Positions 9,092 to 16,857 of a DNA stretch of 36,170 bases are shown piece by piece. A program made the position numbers and the translations under genes. The stretch's first letter is position 1. Every line of letters starts with the position of its first letter. Source of the DNA: an uncultured Halomicronema sp. (GTDB taxonomy: Bacteria; Cyanobacteriota; Cyanobacteriia; Phormidesmidales; Phormidesmidaceae); the NCBI GenBank assembly GCA_937899725.1, contig CALCCA010000141.1:1-36170 (forward strand), written 5' to 3'. The notes under the pieces are model-generated. The model saw only the letters and a list, made by a program, of their open reading frames with translations. It ran no database searches and was not told the origin of the DNA.

Positions 9092-10873
9092 ATGCTGAGC
9101 CTGACTCAAGTTTGGGGCACCTTGCTCATTTTCGTGCTGTGCCCGCTGCTGGGGGCCTTACCGCTGACGGCTTGGTGGCTCACCCTGTTGACGCGTCAGG
9201 CAACCCCACAGCCGTGGCGGCGCGAGATCAGTATTGCCACAGCGGTTGTCGAGGGCAATCAGCTGGTGGGCAGTTTGGCCTGGCTCACCGAGGTGGCCAA
9301 AGGCGTGGGGACAGTTTGGCTGGCTCGCCACTATTTCCCCACTGACCCCGGTTGGGAAATCATTGCCCTGATGGCCTTGGTCATGGGCCGCTACTGGCGA
9401 TCGCACGCCGTAGGCACCACTAGCCTGATTGGCGGGGCCTTTGCCCACACCCCCGTGGTGGCCGGTCTGAGCTTTTTGGTGGGCTTTTTGGGCTTCACCC
9501 TATTTCGGGAAAAGCAGCAGGGTCGGCTACTGGTGCTGGGGCTGTTTACGCTGATCACGGCCCTCAGCCACCCCAACGGCATGCGGATCTTGCTGACGGC
9601 CAGCCTTTGCGGTCTGATCGGCTGGATTTATCAAAAAATGCCCGAGGAGCTGGATCAACCCAACCCCGCCATGCGGCTCGAATCACGGCGGCTATTCGGC
9701 TTCTTTCGCAGCGATCGCGCTCTGCTGGCGCTCCAAAAACGGTTGGACAAAGATCAGGTCGGGGCGAAAGCAGCCTCACTGTCGCAGCTGCTCGGTTGGG
9801 GCTATCCCGTGCCAACAGGCTATGTCTTACCCGCTGGGGATGATCCCGCGATGCTGCTGGAGATTACCCAACCGTCGCCACAGGCTCCCGTCATTGCCCG
9901 ATCATCTATCGTGGGCGATCGCCCAGCTCTCTCGTCCAGTGCGGGGCAATATCCGGCAAGTACCAACCTGACCTCGCCAGAAGCGCTGTACGCGGCGATG
10001 AATCAGTGCTTTCGCGCCTACAGCCAGGCCAGTGCCCTGCAGTATCGCCGCGATCGTGACCTGCCCGAGGGCAGTCTGGCCGTCATTGTGCAGCAGCAGG
10101 TGCAGGGCCTGTGCAGCGGGGTCGCCTTTAGCCGCGATCCCTTTACAGGAGCAGGAGACGCCGTCGTTATTGAAGCACTGCTCGGCCCGGCCGCTTTCGT
10201 CACGGCTGGCCAGCGATCGCCCGAGCAGTGGCAAGTCACCCTGCAGCCCGCTGACCGGCCAGATAATCTCGAAAGTCCTGACAGTTGGCGCTTGCCCGAG
10301 GCACTCACCCTCGACGTCAAGGGCAGCGGCGAGACCCCGCAGCGGCTGCTGCAAGAAGTGGCCTTTTTAGCTCGCCACCTGGAGCAGCGCTGTGCAGGCA
10401 TTCCCCAAAATATTGAATGGAGTTTTGACGGCGATCGCCTCTGGCTCCTGCAGAGTCGGCCCATCATTCCCGTTGAGGGCCAGCGGGGGCAGGGCGCCCA
10501 GCGCCAGTTGCCGACCGCTGAACCACCGACTGTTGCCTTGACTGAGGCCACCTCACGGCTGCACGCCCTGCCGGTCTGTCCTGGAGCAGCCACGGGTAAA
10601 GTCTCAGTCTTAAAGGCTTTGCGCCAGCCTCAAGCGCTACCGCTCGACACTATTTTGGTCGTGCCGTTTCTCAAGGCCAGTGATCTGCCGGCCTTTGCCC
10701 AACTGCCGATCAACGGCTTGATTGCCGAAACCGGCGGCCAACTTTCTAATGGAGCGATCGCGGCGCGCGAGTATGGCATTCCCACCATTGTGATGAGCCA
10801 GCGGCGCGATCGCTTGCAATCCGGACAGCGGATTCATCTAGACAGCACTTTAGGGACCGTAGATTTGCTGTAG
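9092..10873 (+). CDS. PlsY-like membrane domain fused to PEP-synthase-like ATP-grasp and swivelling domains (likely pseudoenzyme or regulatory protein)
   Basis: 593 residues from the ATG at 9092; in-frame ATGs at 9038 and 8921 would add 18 or 57 residues of non-family sequence. Residues 1 to about 190 are hydrophobic and follow the acyl-phosphate:glycerol-3-phosphate acyltransferase (PlsY) plan: PLLGALPLT in place of YLLGSIPTG, EVAKG in place of DVLKG, and MGRYWRS in place of the GHxFPVF motif. The glycine-lysine-rich GGKG loop is replaced by GTTSLIGGAF. The next part (VGAKAASLSQLLGWGYPVP, ARSS, VAFSRDPFTG, NIEWSFDGDRLWLLQSRPI) is the ATP-grasp domain of PEP synthase/PPDK. The last part is the PEP-utilising swivelling domain, where GG-x-TSHAAI-x-AREYGIP becomes GGQLSNGAIAAREYGIP, with Asn (codon 10748-10750) at the phosphohistidine. 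The TIM-barrel domain is absent. Catalysis of the classical PEP reaction is therefore unlikely; this is inference. Confidence 0.78.
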   Translation: MLSLTQVWGTLLIFVLCPLLGALPLTAWWLTLLTRQATPQPWRREISIATAVVEGNQLVGSLAWLTEVAKGVGTVWLARHYFPTDPGWEIIALMALVMGRYWRSHAVGTTSLIGGAFAHTPVVAGLSFLVGFLGFTLFREKQQGRLLVLGLFTLITALSHPNGMRILLTASLCGLIGWIYQKMPEELDQPNPAMRLESRRLFGFFRSDRALLALQKRLDKDQVGAKAASLSQLLGWGYPVPTGYVLPAGDDPAMLLEITQPSPQAPVIARSSIVGDRPALSSSAGQYPASTNLTSPEALYAAMNQCFRAYSQASALQYRRDRDLPEGSLAVIVQQQVQGLCSGVAFSRDPFTGAGDAVVIEALLGPAAFVTAGQRSPEQWQVTLQPADRPDNLESPDSWRLPEALTLDVKGSGETPQRLLQEVAFLARHLEQRCAGIPQNIEWSFDGDRLWLLQSRPIIPVEGQRGQGAQRQLPTAEPPTVALTEATSRLHALPVCPGAATGKVSVLKALRQPQALPLDTILVVPFLKASDLPAFAQLPINGLIAETGGQLSNGAIAAREYGIPTIVMSQRRDRLQSGQRIHLDSTLGTVDLL

Positions 10874-11080: not shown

Positions 11081-11713
11081 ATGAGTCATCCCAGTTTTAA
11101 GACGTATGTCAAAACTCTCAACAGCTTGCTGAAATACAAAGGGGATTGGCTACAGCAAGAGTCTCAAGATTTAGCCAAACTTTGTCACATGTACGGCAAG
11201 CTGCTACAGCTCGATGAGAACGAACGCAAAACACTGCTGTTAGCCGCTTATTTTAAGAACTTGGGGGCGCTCTACATCGCCGACCAGTTATTAGAGGAAG
11301 AGTTTCGCGATCATGGTCATATGGTCGCCAGCTTGAATATCTGGTTTGCTGAAAGCGCCAATATCGCCAGAGATTCAGGACTCACAGACGTCGAAGCTAT
11401 TTTGAACCAGTATCACTTGCGCACCATCCCGCAGCACAAGCTCGCTCGCATTTTTCAAGTGCTCAACACTTGGATTGCCTGCCAACAAGAGAAGGGGTGG
11501 CGGCATCCGATGACGGAGCGCGAAGCCAGAATTATCTTGGAACAGCGGGCCCGCCTGCGGTGGTCAGACCCGCTGATTGTGCGGCATTTCATTCACTGCT
11601 GTAATCAGTCCTGCAGGCTGTCGGATGCGCCCACCGCTGATTACAGCTTGCCCTCTCAAGCCGCTACCCAAGAAGCATCAGAGGCGATCTCCCCCCTCGA
11701 AGAATTGGCCTAA
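11081..11713 (+). CDS. Degenerate HD-GYP/HD-domain-like protein of unknown function
   Basis: 210 residues, soluble. The helical segment LLLAAYFKNLGALYIADQLL occupies the place of the HD-GYP signature AA-x-LHDIGK-x-x-IP-x-x-IL, with the metal-binding His-Asp pair replaced by Lys-Asn. Further segments (HGHMVASLNIWFAES, NQYHLR, EREARIILEQRARLRWSDPLIV) run in the order of the second half of HD-GYP domains, including the equivalent of the segment before the final helix. If the assignment is right, it cannot hydrolyse cyclic-di-GMP and may act as a binding or scaffold protein. It starts 207 bases after the PlsY-like fusion gene on the same strand. The family call is by motif order only. Confidence 0.55.
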   Translation: MSHPSFKTYVKTLNSLLKYKGDWLQQESQDLAKLCHMYGKLLQLDENERKTLLLAAYFKNLGALYIADQLLEEEFRDHGHMVASLNIWFAESANIARDSGLTDVEAILNQYHLRTIPQHKLARIFQVLNTWIACQQEKGWRHPMTEREARIILEQRARLRWSDPLIVRHFIHCCNQSCRLSDAPTADYSLPSQAATQEASEAISPLEELA

Positions 11714-13182: not shown

Positions 13183-13800
13183 TCAAAACAGCTTTGCGGT
13201 CTGCGCTGCCGTGTCAAAGACGTAGCGGCTTTTATAGTCAGTCACGCCATAAAGATTGAACGAAATCGTCGGCTCGTCTCCATAGGGTTCGACCTGGTGA
13301 ATCGCGCCGGGGGTAAACGTGATGATGTCACCGGGAGCCAAGATGGTTTCCTCTAGCAGCTCAATTTTGTCGGGCTGATCGGGCGTTGGCGATCGCCGCC
13401 AGATCCGATTTTTTTCCTGGCCGCCCAGCATCGCCACTAGGCCCCAAGTAGCGTGATTGTGAATGGTGGAAGCACTCCCAGGGCTCCAGGTCACCATTTG
13501 TATCGTCAAGGGAAACTGATATTCTCGATAGAGAAAATGCACGCCCCAGCCGGTTTTGGGGTCAGGCTCTTTGTATTCCATCTGCAGCCAGTAGGAACTG
13601 ATCAGCAGCTTGCGCACCAGGGGGGCGATCGCTGCCAGCCGTTTTGCATCGTCCTGTTCCGCCGCCAAAACATCTTCTAACTCGGTTAAAAAGCGATAGA
13701 GGCGATAGATTTTTTCAGGCTCCTCAGCAGCGGCCGCCTTGAGGGTTTGCAGCGTGCCATCATCTGTTACCAGCCAGTTGCTATTTGCCATGATGCTCAT
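13183..13800 (-). CDS. Cysteine-dioxygenase-family cupin protein
   Basis: 205 residues; the second Met (13791, MANSNWL) is an equally good start. H114 and H116 in TIHNHATWGLV and H168 in TPGAIHQVE fit the three-histidine iron site of the cupin fold used by thiol dioxygenases. The segment SSYWLQMEYKEPDP and the C-terminal ISFNLYG are typical of the predicted metal-dependent cysteine-dioxygenase-type proteins of cyanobacteria. The family oxidises cysteine or a related thiol to a sulfinate, but the true substrate here is unknown. It is divergent from the lipoprotein gene at 13871 with a 70-base shared promoter region. Confidence 0.75.
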   Translation of the reverse strand: MSIMANSNWLVTDDGTLQTLKAAAAEEPEKIYRLYRFLTELEDVLAAEQDDAKRLAAIAPLVRKLLISSYWLQMEYKEPDPKTGWGVHFLYREYQFPLTIQMVTWSPGSASTIHNHATWGLVAMLGGQEKNRIWRRSPTPDQPDKIELLEETILAPGDIITFTPGAIHQVEPYGDEPTISFNLYGVTDYKSRYVFDTAAQTAKLF

Positions 13801-13827
13801 TTGAGAAACCGATGGCTATGGTAATAC
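13801..13827 (+). promoter_or_regulatory. Candidate extended -10 promoter for the FGE-domain lipoprotein gene
   Basis: TTGAGA (13801-13806), a 15-base spacer, then TAATAC (13822-13827) preceded by TGG, an extended -10 arrangement, about 44 bases ahead of the ATG at 13871. The spacer is shorter than the usual 17, so this is tentative. Confidence 0.3.
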
Positions 13828-13870
13828 TGAACGCCGACGAATAGATGAATCTCTGCTGAGGGAGTGGTCA

Positions 13871-14803
13871 ATGGGCAAACATTTATTAAAAATCGCCGCT
13901 GGAGGCTTGCTGCTGCTCTCGGCCTGCAGTGCCGCCTCAGAAGCCGAGCCGCTGATGACCCGCGATCGCTGCGCCGCCCAGCCCGGTTTCGTCTTTGTGC
14001 CAGCGGGCACCTTTATCACGGGCAGCACCCCTGCCGAGCGCGACTATGGCTACGAGATTTCCGCCCAGGCGATCGCGGATTCACCCGAGGCCATCGCGGC
14101 CGCCGAACAGGGATTGCGCGATCGGCGCTGGTTTGAGTTTGAAGCCGATCAGCAGACGGCCTCGTTGGCCGCTGTTTGCATGCAGGCCAATCTGGTCACC
14201 CAGCAAGACTATGCTGCCTTTATCGCCGCCACCGGCCACCGCGCCCCCGGCATTTCTGCTGCCGAGTATCAAGAGCAAGGGTTTTTAGTGCATCCCTACG
14301 CAGACGTCGTGCCCTACCTGTGGCAAGACAACATGTTTCCTGACAGTTTGGGGGAGCATCCGGTGGTGCTCGCCTCCTATGACGATGCCGTAGCCTATGC
14401 CGAGTGGCGCGGCCAGCAAGATGGCGTGCAGTATCGGTTGCCCACTGCCGACGAATGGGAAAAAACCGCCCGAGGCGAAGATGGTCGCTACTTTCCCTGG
14501 GGCAATGACTGGCAAGATGACGCCACCCACTGGGGTCAGTCAATCCCTTTTGGTACCAGCGCGATCGCCCGCTATCCCCTCAGTCAAAGCCCCTATGGGG
14601 CCGAAGACATGGCCGGCAACGTGTTTGAGTTCACCTCCACCCTGCGGGAGCGGCGGGGCGTCACTGTCTCGGTAATGAAAGGCTGCTCTTGGGATGACCT
14701 GCCCGGCTTTTGTCGCGCCGCCTATGAGCACACGCGCCCAACGACTTCGCGCCATATTCTCTTCGGGTTTCGGCTGGTGCTGGTGCCCGAGTTGCTTGAG
14801 TAA
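13871..14803 (+). CDS. FGE-sulfatase (SUMF1) domain lipoprotein lacking one canonical active-site cysteine
   Basis: 310 residues. The N-terminus MGKHLLKIAAGGLLLLSAC ends in a lipobox (LSAC, Cys19), so the protein should be lipid-anchored outside the cytoplasmic membrane. GAGGGAG precedes the ATG. FGE-domain landmarks follow: FVFVPAGTFITGS near the start, RLPTADEWEKTARG, FPWGND, GAEDMAGNVFEFTS and the C-terminal GCSWDDLPGFCRAAY ... FGFRLV. In true formylglycine-generating enzymes a Cys-x4-Cys pair binds copper in the last segment; here the second Cys (C281) is kept and the first appears to be Asp, with an extra Cys272 before SW. It may therefore be a carbohydrate- or protein-binding relative. 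No sulfatase gene is present nearby. Confidence 0.8.
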   Translation: MGKHLLKIAAGGLLLLSACSAASEAEPLMTRDRCAAQPGFVFVPAGTFITGSTPAERDYGYEISAQAIADSPEAIAAAEQGLRDRRWFEFEADQQTASLAAVCMQANLVTQQDYAAFIAATGHRAPGISAAEYQEQGFLVHPYADVVPYLWQDNMFPDSLGEHPVVLASYDDAVAYAEWRGQQDGVQYRLPTADEWEKTARGEDGRYFPWGNDWQDDATHWGQSIPFGTSAIARYPLSQSPYGAEDMAGNVFEFTSTLRERRGVTVSVMKGCSWDDLPGFCRAAYEHTRPTTSRHILFGFRLVLVPELLE

Positions 14804-15027: not shown

Positions 15028-16857
15028 TCAGCCATCCGCAACAGCTTGCCAAAACCGGATAGTTTCATCAGCGGCGCTGCTGATCAGCGTTTGACTATCG
15101 GGCGTAAACACCAAGTCACAGACCGCCCAATCATGGCGCAGTACTGCACATCGCTGGGGGATCTCACCGCTCCAATCCCATAGGTGAATCTCGCGATCGC
15201 GGCTCCCCGTAGCCAACCAGCGACCGTTCGGGCTGAGGGCGATCGCGCTGACCGCATCTTGATGCTGGCCTAGTTGCTGATGCTGAGCCAAATCTGTCAG
15301 TGACCAGAGCGTGACGGCACCCCGACGATCGCCGGTCACCACTGCCGGTTCAGTCGCCTTGAGTGCCACCGCCCGCAGTCCCGCTGGCGCCGTCCAAGTG
15401 TGGAGCAGTTGCCCCGTCGGCAGCGCCCACAGCCGCAGCGTGCCCGCTTCTCCCACGCTGACTAGGCGATCGCCCAGGGGGCTCACCTGCACTTGGTTCA
15501 CCGCACCGCTGTGGCGCGTTAAATCCACCAGACGCTTACCCGCATTAATCTGCCATAGCGAAATGCGGCCTGTGGTATCAGCAGCCACGAGCTGCGTCCC
15601 GTCAGGAGTGAGGGCGATCGTTGTCACCAGCCAGCCTGGCTGCTGCCAGCTCTGCCGCAGCCGATCGCTGTCTAAATCCCACTGTTTGACCGTACCGTCT
15701 TGGCTAGCGCTAAATAGCGTTTGACCATCGGGATGAAAGGTCACCGCCGTCGCGGCATCGCGATGGCCCTCACCCAACCCCAAGCGCTGGGCAAAGGTAT
15801 GCAAAACCTCACCGATTTGCCGATCCCAAAGCTGCACAGTGCTATCACTATTGGCTGTGGCGATCGCTCGCCCCGTTGGCGCGATCGCCACAGCCTTCAC
15901 CACTCGACCCGGTGTCGGCCAGGTTTGCTGACAACGCCAGGGGGCAAGGGATTGCTGAGCCAAATCAGATGTGACCCGTGGCTGCGGCACTAACCCTGCT
16001 GGGGCCAGATCAGCCAAGGCCGCTATTGCAGTGGGGTAGCGGCTACGCAGCGTCCGTGCGGTTAACCGGTTCAGCACTCGCGCCAGCGCATCACCGACGG
16101 GGGCCGGCGTCAACGTTTGCCACACCCAGCAATCTGCCGCTACGGAATACAGGTCAAACGGATGCATCCCGGTAAGCAGATGCAGGCAAGTCAAACCCAG
16201 ACTATAAAGATCGCTGGCGGGTACCGCTTTGCCCAGGGCTTGCTCAGGGGCCGCATAGCCCGCGCTGCCAATGATCGTGCCGGTCTGCTCGAGTTCACTG
16301 GCCGTGGGCACTGGTCGCGCCGCCCCAAAATCGACCAAGACAGGAAGACCATCGCCTGCCGACAGCACCACATTCTCGGGCTTAATGTCGCGGTGAATAA
16401 TCTTTTGGTCGTGAATAAACTGCAGCACCGGCAAGAGGGCCAGCAGCAGCGATCGCACGTCCTTTTCAGTGAACGGGCCATCCGCCGCCAATCTCTGGGC
16501 CAGGGTACGACCCGCCACATAGGTTTGCACCAGGCACAGATCACGCGATGATTCCAAAATGGCAATTAAGCTCGGAATCTGCGGATGTTGCCCGAGCTGG
16601 GCTAAGCGCTTCGCTTCCGCTAGATCTTGATCACGGCTGCCGCGCGACCGCAGGATTTGCTTGATCACACAGCGCTGAGGCGGGGTCACCGCTTCATCCC
16701 AGGCTAAAAAAGTTCGGCCAAAGCCGCCCTCGCCCAACCCTTGCGTTGGGCGAAACCGTTGGCCCAAGCGCAAACGATCGCCACAGCCCTGGCAGCGATC
16801 GCTCTCTGCCGCATTGCTCGGAGCCGGACATTGAGGATTAATACACAGAGTCACCAT
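15028..16857 (-). CDS. Zinc-ribbon Ser/Thr protein kinase with a seven-repeat WD40 propeller
   Basis: 609 residues. An N-terminal zinc-ribbon (C5, C10, C22, C25) precedes the kinase: GLGEGGFG (40-47), Lys66 in CVIKQI, HRDIKPEN (155-162) and DFG (176-178), followed by GSAGYAAPEQ. All catalytic residues are present, so it is probably active. The C-terminal half contains seven WD repeats ending in LWD or a variant (VQLWD, VKQWD, ISLWQ, LRLWA, VTLWS, IHLWD, IRFWQ), enough for one complete propeller. No membrane segment is seen. This architecture is common in cyanobacteria, where the propeller is thought to bring in partners. The substrate is unknown. It is flanked by unrelated genes. Confidence 0.92.
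   Translation of the reverse strand: MVTLCINPQCPAPSNAAESDRCQGCGDRLRLGQRFRPTQGLGEGGFGRTFLAWDEAVTPPQRCVIKQILRSRGSRDQDLAEAKRLAQLGQHPQIPSLIAILESSRDLCLVQTYVAGRTLAQRLAADGPFTEKDVRSLLLALLPVLQFIHDQKIIHRDIKPENVVLSAGDGLPVLVDFGAARPVPTASELEQTGTIIGSAGYAAPEQALGKAVPASDLYSLGLTCLHLLTGMHPFDLYSVAADCWVWQTLTPAPVGDALARVLNRLTARTLRSRYPTAIAALADLAPAGLVPQPRVTSDLAQQSLAPWRCQQTWPTPGRVVKAVAIAPTGRAIATANSDSTVQLWDRQIGEVLHTFAQRLGLGEGHRDAATAVTFHPDGQTLFSASQDGTVKQWDLDSDRLRQSWQQPGWLVTTIALTPDGTQLVAADTTGRISLWQINAGKRLVDLTRHSGAVNQVQVSPLGDRLVSVGEAGTLRLWALPTGQLLHTWTAPAGLRAVALKATEPAVVTGDRRGAVTLWSLTDLAQHQQLGQHQDAVSAIALSPNGRWLATGSRDREIHLWDWSGEIPQRCAVLRHDWAVCDLVFTPDSQTLISSAADETIRFWQAVADG

Follow-up and report, generated by a model that had tools for sequence, protein, structure and literature searches.

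A cyanobacterial PlsY-like/dikinase fusion and its short form, a putative pseudo-dikinase best read as a product of domain loss

The membrane acyltransferase PlsY, which uses acyl-phosphate and glycerol 3-phosphate (G3P), binds the G3P phosphate through Ser35, Arg45, Lys104, and Asn180 and contacts the acyl-phosphate through His92, Thr41, and loop amides, as given in the available part of its description (PMC5700162). Rifampin phosphotransferase (RPH) is a dikinase built from an ATP-grasp domain, a substrate-binding middle domain, and a swivel domain bearing a His (His825), and its Thr136 contacts the alpha-phosphate. According to the accessible part of the mutant analysis of RPH, Lys22Ala was inactive and Glu297Ala active, while Arg117Ala and Thr136Val lost the second step and retained ATP cleavage (ATP-pyrophosphatase activity) (PMC4844700). 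In the two-component dikinase HpeHI, the His-to-Gln mutant H581Q of HpeH is described as inactive in the portion of the report that could be consulted (PMC12167813). Among papers judged by title and the start of the abstract, we found none treating a fusion of a PlsY-like domain with a dikinase, nor did we find a family name for the long PlsY-like/RPH-like proteins described below, and the family is apparently unstudied.

We analyzed a stretch of 36,170 nucleotides (the window) from an uncultured Halomicronema sp. (contig CALCCA010000141.1, positions 1 to 36,170, forward strand). An earlier note, made from the sequence alone, had described within it an open reading frame that joins a PlsY-like membrane domain to a PEP-synthase-like module with Asn at the position of the catalytic His. 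The frame, the fusion, and the Asn were all borne out by Pfam matches, the AAT codon, and the predicted folds. The 593-aa protein matched PF02660 at 25.4 bits (cut-off, 24.1), PF01326 at 97.6 bits, and PF00391 at 47.4 bits, and its start, the ATG at 9092, is common to the orthologues in the alignment. The features of this protein, hereafter the short form, and of one neighbor are as follows.

9092..10873, forward strand: short-form fusion of PlsY-like, ATP-grasp, and swivel domains, 593 aa plus stop (Pfam, alignment)
9092..9661, forward strand: PlsY-fold membrane domain, residues 1-190 (PF02660, predicted fold)
9215..9259, forward strand: residues 42-56, the site of GTGN...YHGG in the long forms (alignment)
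9386..9424, forward strand: residues 99-111 (GRYWRSHAVGTTS), reading GRYW..GAGTTN in the long forms and GH...GGK in PlsY
9674..9724, forward strand: residues 195-211 (RLESRRLFGFFRSDRAL), connector from membrane to ATP-grasp domain, invariant in 6/6 short forms
9713..10471, forward strand: ATP-grasp domain, residues 208-460 (PF01326; 5hv6_A, Z 21.2)
10472..10555, forward strand: variable linker, residues 461-488, occupying the position of the long form's ~400-aa middle domain (alignment)
10556..10870, forward strand: swivel domain of the phosphohistidine type, residues 489-593 (PF00391)
10748..10750, forward strand: Asn553, codon AAT, at the phosphohistidine position within GGQLSNGAI
11081..11713, forward strand: HD_5-type neighbor with the HD pair changed to KN, also beside the long form of genome G012 (Pfam, alignment)

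The structure of the 593-aa protein was predicted with AlphaFold2 from 27 family rows (mean pLDDT 81.9, pTM 0.61). Residues 8-202 of the model adopted the seven-helix PlsY fold (5xj8_A at Z 15.8, with 178 residues superposed at 3.2 A and a target TM of 0.68), in agreement with the fold proposed earlier for residues 1-190, and residues 200-593 adopted an RPH/PPDK-like fold, with RPH as the top match (5hv3, Z 34.0, 4.0 A over 342 residues), followed by RPH 5hv2 (Z 32.5), PPDK 1kbl (28.6), and PEP synthase 2ols (24.1); RPH entries in other conformations gave Z values of 13-24. With RPH, its best fold match, the short form shares the ATP-grasp and C-terminal swivel folds and the equivalents of Lys22, Arg117, Glu297, and Arg311; however, it lacks the substrate-binding middle domain, carries Asn for His825 and Ala for Thr136, and has a membrane domain added. 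The same two folds are found in PEP synthase and PPDK, but the short form is without their His and their PEP/pyruvate domain. HpeI, the ATP-grasp component of HpeHI, also matches the short form (9goj, Z 18.4) and illustrates that the modules can be rearranged, although HpeHI keeps both the His and the substrate domain. At the level of sequence models, the short form missed the TIGR01418 (PEP synthase) cut-off, with 92.4 bits against 739.75, and no cut-off among the NCBIfam models listed was reached by it (25 of the 26 models viewed) or by four long forms. Among viral proteins, the best fold match of the window protein model was Gp139 of Bacillus phage G (365 aa, E 6.5e-20, target TM 0.73), a compact phage protein with the same kind of fold and no named function, followed by unnamed and dikinase/ATP-grasp proteins.

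The largest change in the short form, missed by the earlier note, lies between the ATP-grasp and swivel domains. The same fusion, in the same domain order, is widespread in cyanobacteria as a long form of ~980 residues with an additional middle domain of ~400 residues at this place, which was absent from all six short forms in the alignment. The short-form protein was searched against the window's genome and 38 relatives and matched 37 of these 39 genomes. Each of the six genomes of the window's genus contained an open frame of 596-683 aa; among the other 33, an open frame of 948-1053 aa, matching over the N-terminal ~460 residues and further on over the C-terminal swivel, was found in 20, the long gene was in pieces or had internal stops in four (G008, G013, G014, and G030), and the remaining nine gave partial matches only, most of the PEP-synthase type, or none. 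In a class-wide search with the membrane domain, 193 of 290 genomes matched at E <= 0.001, 168 of them below 1e-30. The 150 best class-wide matches comprised 141 frames of 835-1229 aa, five short frames (596-683 aa), all in the window's genus, and four frames of 215-354 aa, two of which (G279 and G014) are each divided over two reading frames while one (G211) ends at a contig end. The short form was therefore found in every one of the six genomes searched from the genus and elsewhere in none among the 150 best class-wide matches.

From a scan of named genomes, we retained the best 80 of 532 confirmed relatives, all with cyanobacterial titles; 78 were long forms, and the two short forms belonged to Halomicronema sp. 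CCY15110 and Oscillatoria sp. CS-180. The swivel motif was seen in 72 of these 78 long loci, with His in 72/72. The other six are odd frames, broken or cut, and are not short forms: in four the match reaches the end of the long form, in one frame or across two, and one reaches a contig end. At locus L091 (Adonisia turfae CCMR0081), the long-form match extends to residue 889 and the sequence then continues in frame, within a single frame of 1777 aa with no recognized swivel motif, a run-on that may reflect masked bases or a real fusion. Split or stop-containing long-form genes were also seen at L170 (G279), L172 (G014), L023 (G030), L061, and L084, and represent either sequencing errors or real decay. 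For the residue comparisons, the two short forms and six odd-frame loci of the 80 named relatives and two duplicate rows were left out, giving a long set of 91 rows that includes six second copies, 86 of the rows being distinct in the shared columns.

By sequence profile, the long form came closest to RPH. Two long forms scored 67.6 and 48.6 bits against PF02660. A profile of 21 long forms matched RPH in two stretches (5fbs, E 4e-79), and PEP synthases came next (8a8e, 4e-59; 2ols, 8e-44). A long-form model (mean pLDDT 78.4) matched RPH with Z 23.2 over 563 residues (5hv1) and 23.1 over 648 residues (5hv3), and PEP synthase 2ols with Z 23.0 over 239 residues at 2.5 A; the rmsd between RPH and this model exceeded 20 A, so the domains are placed differently. 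We therefore call the long form RPH-like on the basis of the sequence profile and the extent of the match. On sequence profile, RPH-like is a better label than PEP-synthase-like, although in fold the two are tied in Z for the long model.

We then compared the residues of the membrane domain. The sequence match of the fusion to solved PlsY was weak (E 0.11), and in the alignment MGRYWR stands at the position of PlsY GHxFP and the GGKG loop is absent, as read in the earlier note. Although a PlsY fold is predicted, the Arg45, Lys104, His92, and C-terminal RHxxN motif of PlsY are absent from the window protein: at the G3P clamp it has Arg43 and Val53, with no counterpart of the Lys104 loop or the RHxxN segment, and in place of the acyl-phosphate side chains it has Arg100 for His92 and Ala49 for Thr41. 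Arg100 (GR for the GH of PlsY) was found in 91/91 aligned long rows as well as 6/6 short forms, and the substitution is therefore not peculiar to the window's copy. Where PlsY has Ser35, Arg45, and Lys104, Thr and Tyr occupy the first two positions in the long forms and lysine is missing from the third; these forms have Arg for His92, mostly Ser for Thr41, and no RHxxN. Judged from the alignment, the G3P clamp appears to have been dropped by the fusion family as a whole and not only by the window's copy. The long family retains the glycine loop and a strongly conserved motif foreign to PlsY (GTGN...YHGG, GAGTTN), and the window's genome encodes a separate canonical PlsY (168 bits, usual motifs). 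Since the clamp appears to be gone, the family has a conserved motif of its own, and a canonical PlsY is present separately, the membrane domain of the long family probably deals with some other lipid or lipid phosphate. In contrast to the intact pocket motif of the long form, the GTGN/YHGG motif was lost in 6/6 short forms: Thr43, Asn45, Tyr53, and His54 are changed or gapped in all six, where the alignment of the loop among them is uncertain, and residues 38-42 form a low-confidence loop in the short-form model. Ala107 and Asn111 of the GAGTTN loop are likewise changed in 6/6, with Val107 in every one.

The ATP-grasp domain was better preserved. Lys226, Arg270, Glu442, and Arg456, corresponding to Lys22, Arg117, Glu297, and Arg311 of RPH, were kept in 6/6 short forms (the equivalents of Arg311 and Gln309 were assigned by alignment only). 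The Thr136 equivalent is Ala289 in the window protein and Ala or Gly in 6/6 short forms, versus Ser or Thr in 91/91 long rows; Asp277 and Asp440 are changed in 6/6, and Glu276 becomes Asp. In the swivel domain, the TDxGW motif was lost in 6/6, with Thr527, Asp528, Gly530, and Trp531 changed and Lys528 in all six, so that TDAGW of the long forms reads LKASD in the window protein; this loss, together with that of the middle domain, would fit a vanished interface. To compare the domains, we used columns at least 95% conserved in the 85 long rows that remain without the second copies, with the linker excluded. Changes in all six sequences affected 30/184 of these columns in the short forms versus 8/184 in the second long copies of the same genomes (Fisher p 2e-4), an excess of which part may be rate, since the stem of the short clade is longer (0.40 vs 0.35). 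Columns kept in all six short forms made up 62/84 in the ATP-grasp domain versus 52/100 in the PlsY-like and swivel domains together (Fisher p 0.004). The earlier view that both halves have lost chemistry while keeping their folds is supported for the window's copy, in which the residues are absent and the folds predicted, but does not extend to the fusion as such.

At the phosphohistidine position, His was found in 91/91 aligned long rows (86 distinct), while the six short orthologues were divided, with Asn in four (all AAT) and His in two (G001 and G004; codon CAC). The Asn is therefore not conserved among the orthologues, and its interpretation as a conserved new catalytic residue was ruled out. 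G001 and G004 are sisters nested among the Asn short forms (support of the relevant fork, 88/77), and the history with the fewest changes requires two, one loss and one regain of His; alternatively, there may have been three independent losses. At the loci of these two genomes (L039 and L040), the apparent return of His goes together with a Gln-to-His change at residue 454, a position that is Gln in 91/91 long rows.

These residue patterns bear on whether the short form might be an active enzyme with altered chemistry, in which the ATP-grasp domain would cleave ATP and might also pass phosphate on to another residue or to a lipid in the membrane domain. Such activity would be compatible with the core ATP-grasp residues kept, with the His of two orthologues, and with the RPH mutants that cleave ATP without the second step in the part of the study available (PMC4844700); however, the Thr136 equivalent, Asp277, Asp440, and the membrane pocket motif were lost in 6/6, Gln454 in 2/6, and Asn replaces His in 4/6, and we regard this explanation as improbable. 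The new reaction offered as one option in the earlier note was unsupported here.

To trace where the short form came from, we built trees of 27 and of 97 rows. Its six representatives formed a single clade nested among long forms from their own family, beside those of G012, G015, and G011 (the last does not differ from Leptolyngbya sp. PCC 6406 in the columns compared), and were 56-58% identical to these sister long forms over residues 1-458. In AU tests, for which the groups were chosen after a first tree had been seen, holding the long forms of the family together without the short ones was rejected (p-AU 0.003). In addition, the window and the long-form locus of G012 have three neighbors in common, the HD-like protein, the protein at 13186-13800, and an FGE-sulfatase-type protein, in partly inverted order. 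Among the short loci, the HD-like neighbor occurs at three of six (window, G002, and G005), as does the pair of the 13186-13800 and FGE-type proteins (window, G002, and G003), while at those of G001 and G004 the upstream short-chain dehydrogenase is the one shared neighbor. On the strength of the tree placement and the partly shared neighbors, the most plausible reading of the short form is a resident long gene whose middle domain was deleted in frame.

All six genomes of the genus also carry, alongside the short form, a second, full-length long copy of another lineage, and the two genes were not adjacent on the contigs seen. AU tests rejected joining this copy to the short clade (p-AU 7e-10) as well as placing it inside the family's own clade (p-AU 0.001, with two of the four outside rows long-branched). 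The second copy may be either an acquisition from outside the family or an old duplicate. One scenario, which we hold only as a tentative minority view, is that the resident was displaced, being trimmed after a copy from another lineage had settled, and was retained to regulate lipid-linked phosphorylation, possibly that of the newcomer, in response to ATP. To a structural partnership we give about the same, rather low, credence: the short form would join the second long copy in a membrane hetero-oligomer and set its activity in the manner of a pseudokinase subunit. Both proteins occur in 6/6 searched genomes of the genus, and HpeH is recorded as a mixture of monomer and dimer in the consulted part of PMC12167813, but the genes lie apart on the contigs seen, and co-occurrence within one genus amounts to a single evolutionary event. 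The second copy also has a middle domain, which raises the possibility that the short form is half of an HpeHI-like two-component dikinase drawing its middle domain from another protein. Such dikinases do exist (PMC12167813, as far as its available text goes); nevertheless, in HpeHI the swivel is described there as staying with the substrate-binding domain rather than with the ATP-grasp domain, and the swivel of the short form has lost TDxGW in 6/6 and His in 4/6, making this arrangement quite unlikely.

The short gene showed signs of constraint. Nei-Gojobori dN/dS between short forms was 0.10-0.23 (11 of 15 pairs with estimable dS), and that between the second long copies of the same genomes was 0.10-0.18 (12 of 15 pairs); most dS values exceeded 1, so these ratios are rough. 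For the closest pair, dN/dS was 0.05 in the ATP-grasp domain, 0.07 in the swivel, 0.11 in the membrane domain, and 0.37 in the linker, residues 461-488 of which form the least conserved segment. The short form thus looks like a used protein under purifying selection. A pseudogene decaying since the arrival of the second copy might account for the missing middle domain and the several lost motifs, but an open frame in 6/6 species, these dN/dS values, and residues fixed in the short clade and different from the long family (e.g., Lys528 and Val107, 6/6) argue against it, and on the open frames and dN/dS we rejected it as very improbable. Homologues that keep His and the PlsY motifs had been named in the earlier note as a sign that this copy is a decayed one; the long rows do keep the His, together with a pocket motif that is not that of PlsY, and the copy is not decayed.

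Taken together, we propose, with somewhat more confidence than doubt, that the short form is a maintained pseudo-dikinase, most likely serving in the membrane as a regulator or partner that responds to nucleotide. Descent, losses, and purifying selection are shown by the sequence comparisons, and the folds are predicted. In its safest form, the statement is that a resident membrane dikinase was apparently cut by domain loss and kept by selection after losing its phosphotransfer features. A resident long gene, encoding a PlsY-fold membrane domain and an RPH-type dikinase with ATP-grasp domain, substrate-binding middle domain, and His swivel, would have lost the middle domain in frame in cells with a second, intact long copy. 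The ATP-grasp domain would bind ATP or ADP, and this binding would shift the swivel against the ATP-grasp and membrane domains. With the middle domain absent and the His mostly absent, no phosphate would be handed on, so the protein would act by binding and conformation. The nucleotide-responsive part of the proposal draws on the residues kept and on the fate of His mutants in the relatives, and the sensor of nucleotides or lipids suggested earlier is plausible. Several observations speak against a pseudo-dikinase: His is present in two of six orthologues, and its apparent regain would be odd for a dead phospho-carrier; a half reaction is possible, given the ATP-pyrophosphatase activity kept by Thr136Val and Arg117Ala of RPH in the accessible text of PMC4844700; and the gene neighborhood points to no partner or ligand, and even the six short loci have their neighbors only partly in common.

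Gene neighborhoods were compared across 90 loci of the fusion family, and no neighbor was conserved across it. An alpha/beta hydrolase was a same-strand neighbor at 11/90 loci, two of which come from a second record of a genome already included; an M23 peptidase at 10/90, directly adjacent in nine; and a bactofilin lay directly 5' of the long form on the same strand at 9/90 (L100, L067, L072, and relatives), each of the three in one lineage as far as seen. Inference of function from neighborhood was rejected, as the commonest neighbors are each confined to one lineage as far as seen. At 11/90 loci, all of one lineage (L083, L049-L051, L081, and relatives), a Hydrolase_4 (lipase-type) protein lies directly 3' of the long form on the same strand. 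The neighbor at 11081..11713, which had been noted for an apparently lost metal site, does show HD changed to KN, as do all four homologues compared. One of these stands beside the intact long form of G012; the change is therefore not linked to the lost His, and a functional link between the fusion and the degenerate HD neighbor is unsupported. Elsewhere in the window, an FGE-sulfatase-type protein (PF03781) is divergent from a 205-aa protein without a Pfam match (13183-14803), a pair also found in G002, G003, and G012, and a Ser/Thr protein kinase domain is fused to WD40 repeats (15028-16857).

By the count of 168 of 290 matched below 1e-30, over half of the genomes sampled from this cyanobacterial class carry the membrane domain of the family, and the long parent, which combines a PlsY fold with a rewired glycerol-phosphate clamp and a dikinase, raises the question of its lipid-soluble substrate. 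For this apparently unstudied family, the short form is a natural deletion experiment that shows which parts can go and which are held, and it places a putative pseudoenzyme beside its enzyme relative in the same cell, with a history that can be traced. If its reading as an ATP-responsive regulator is true, the short form would be a pseudoenzyme made by domain loss.
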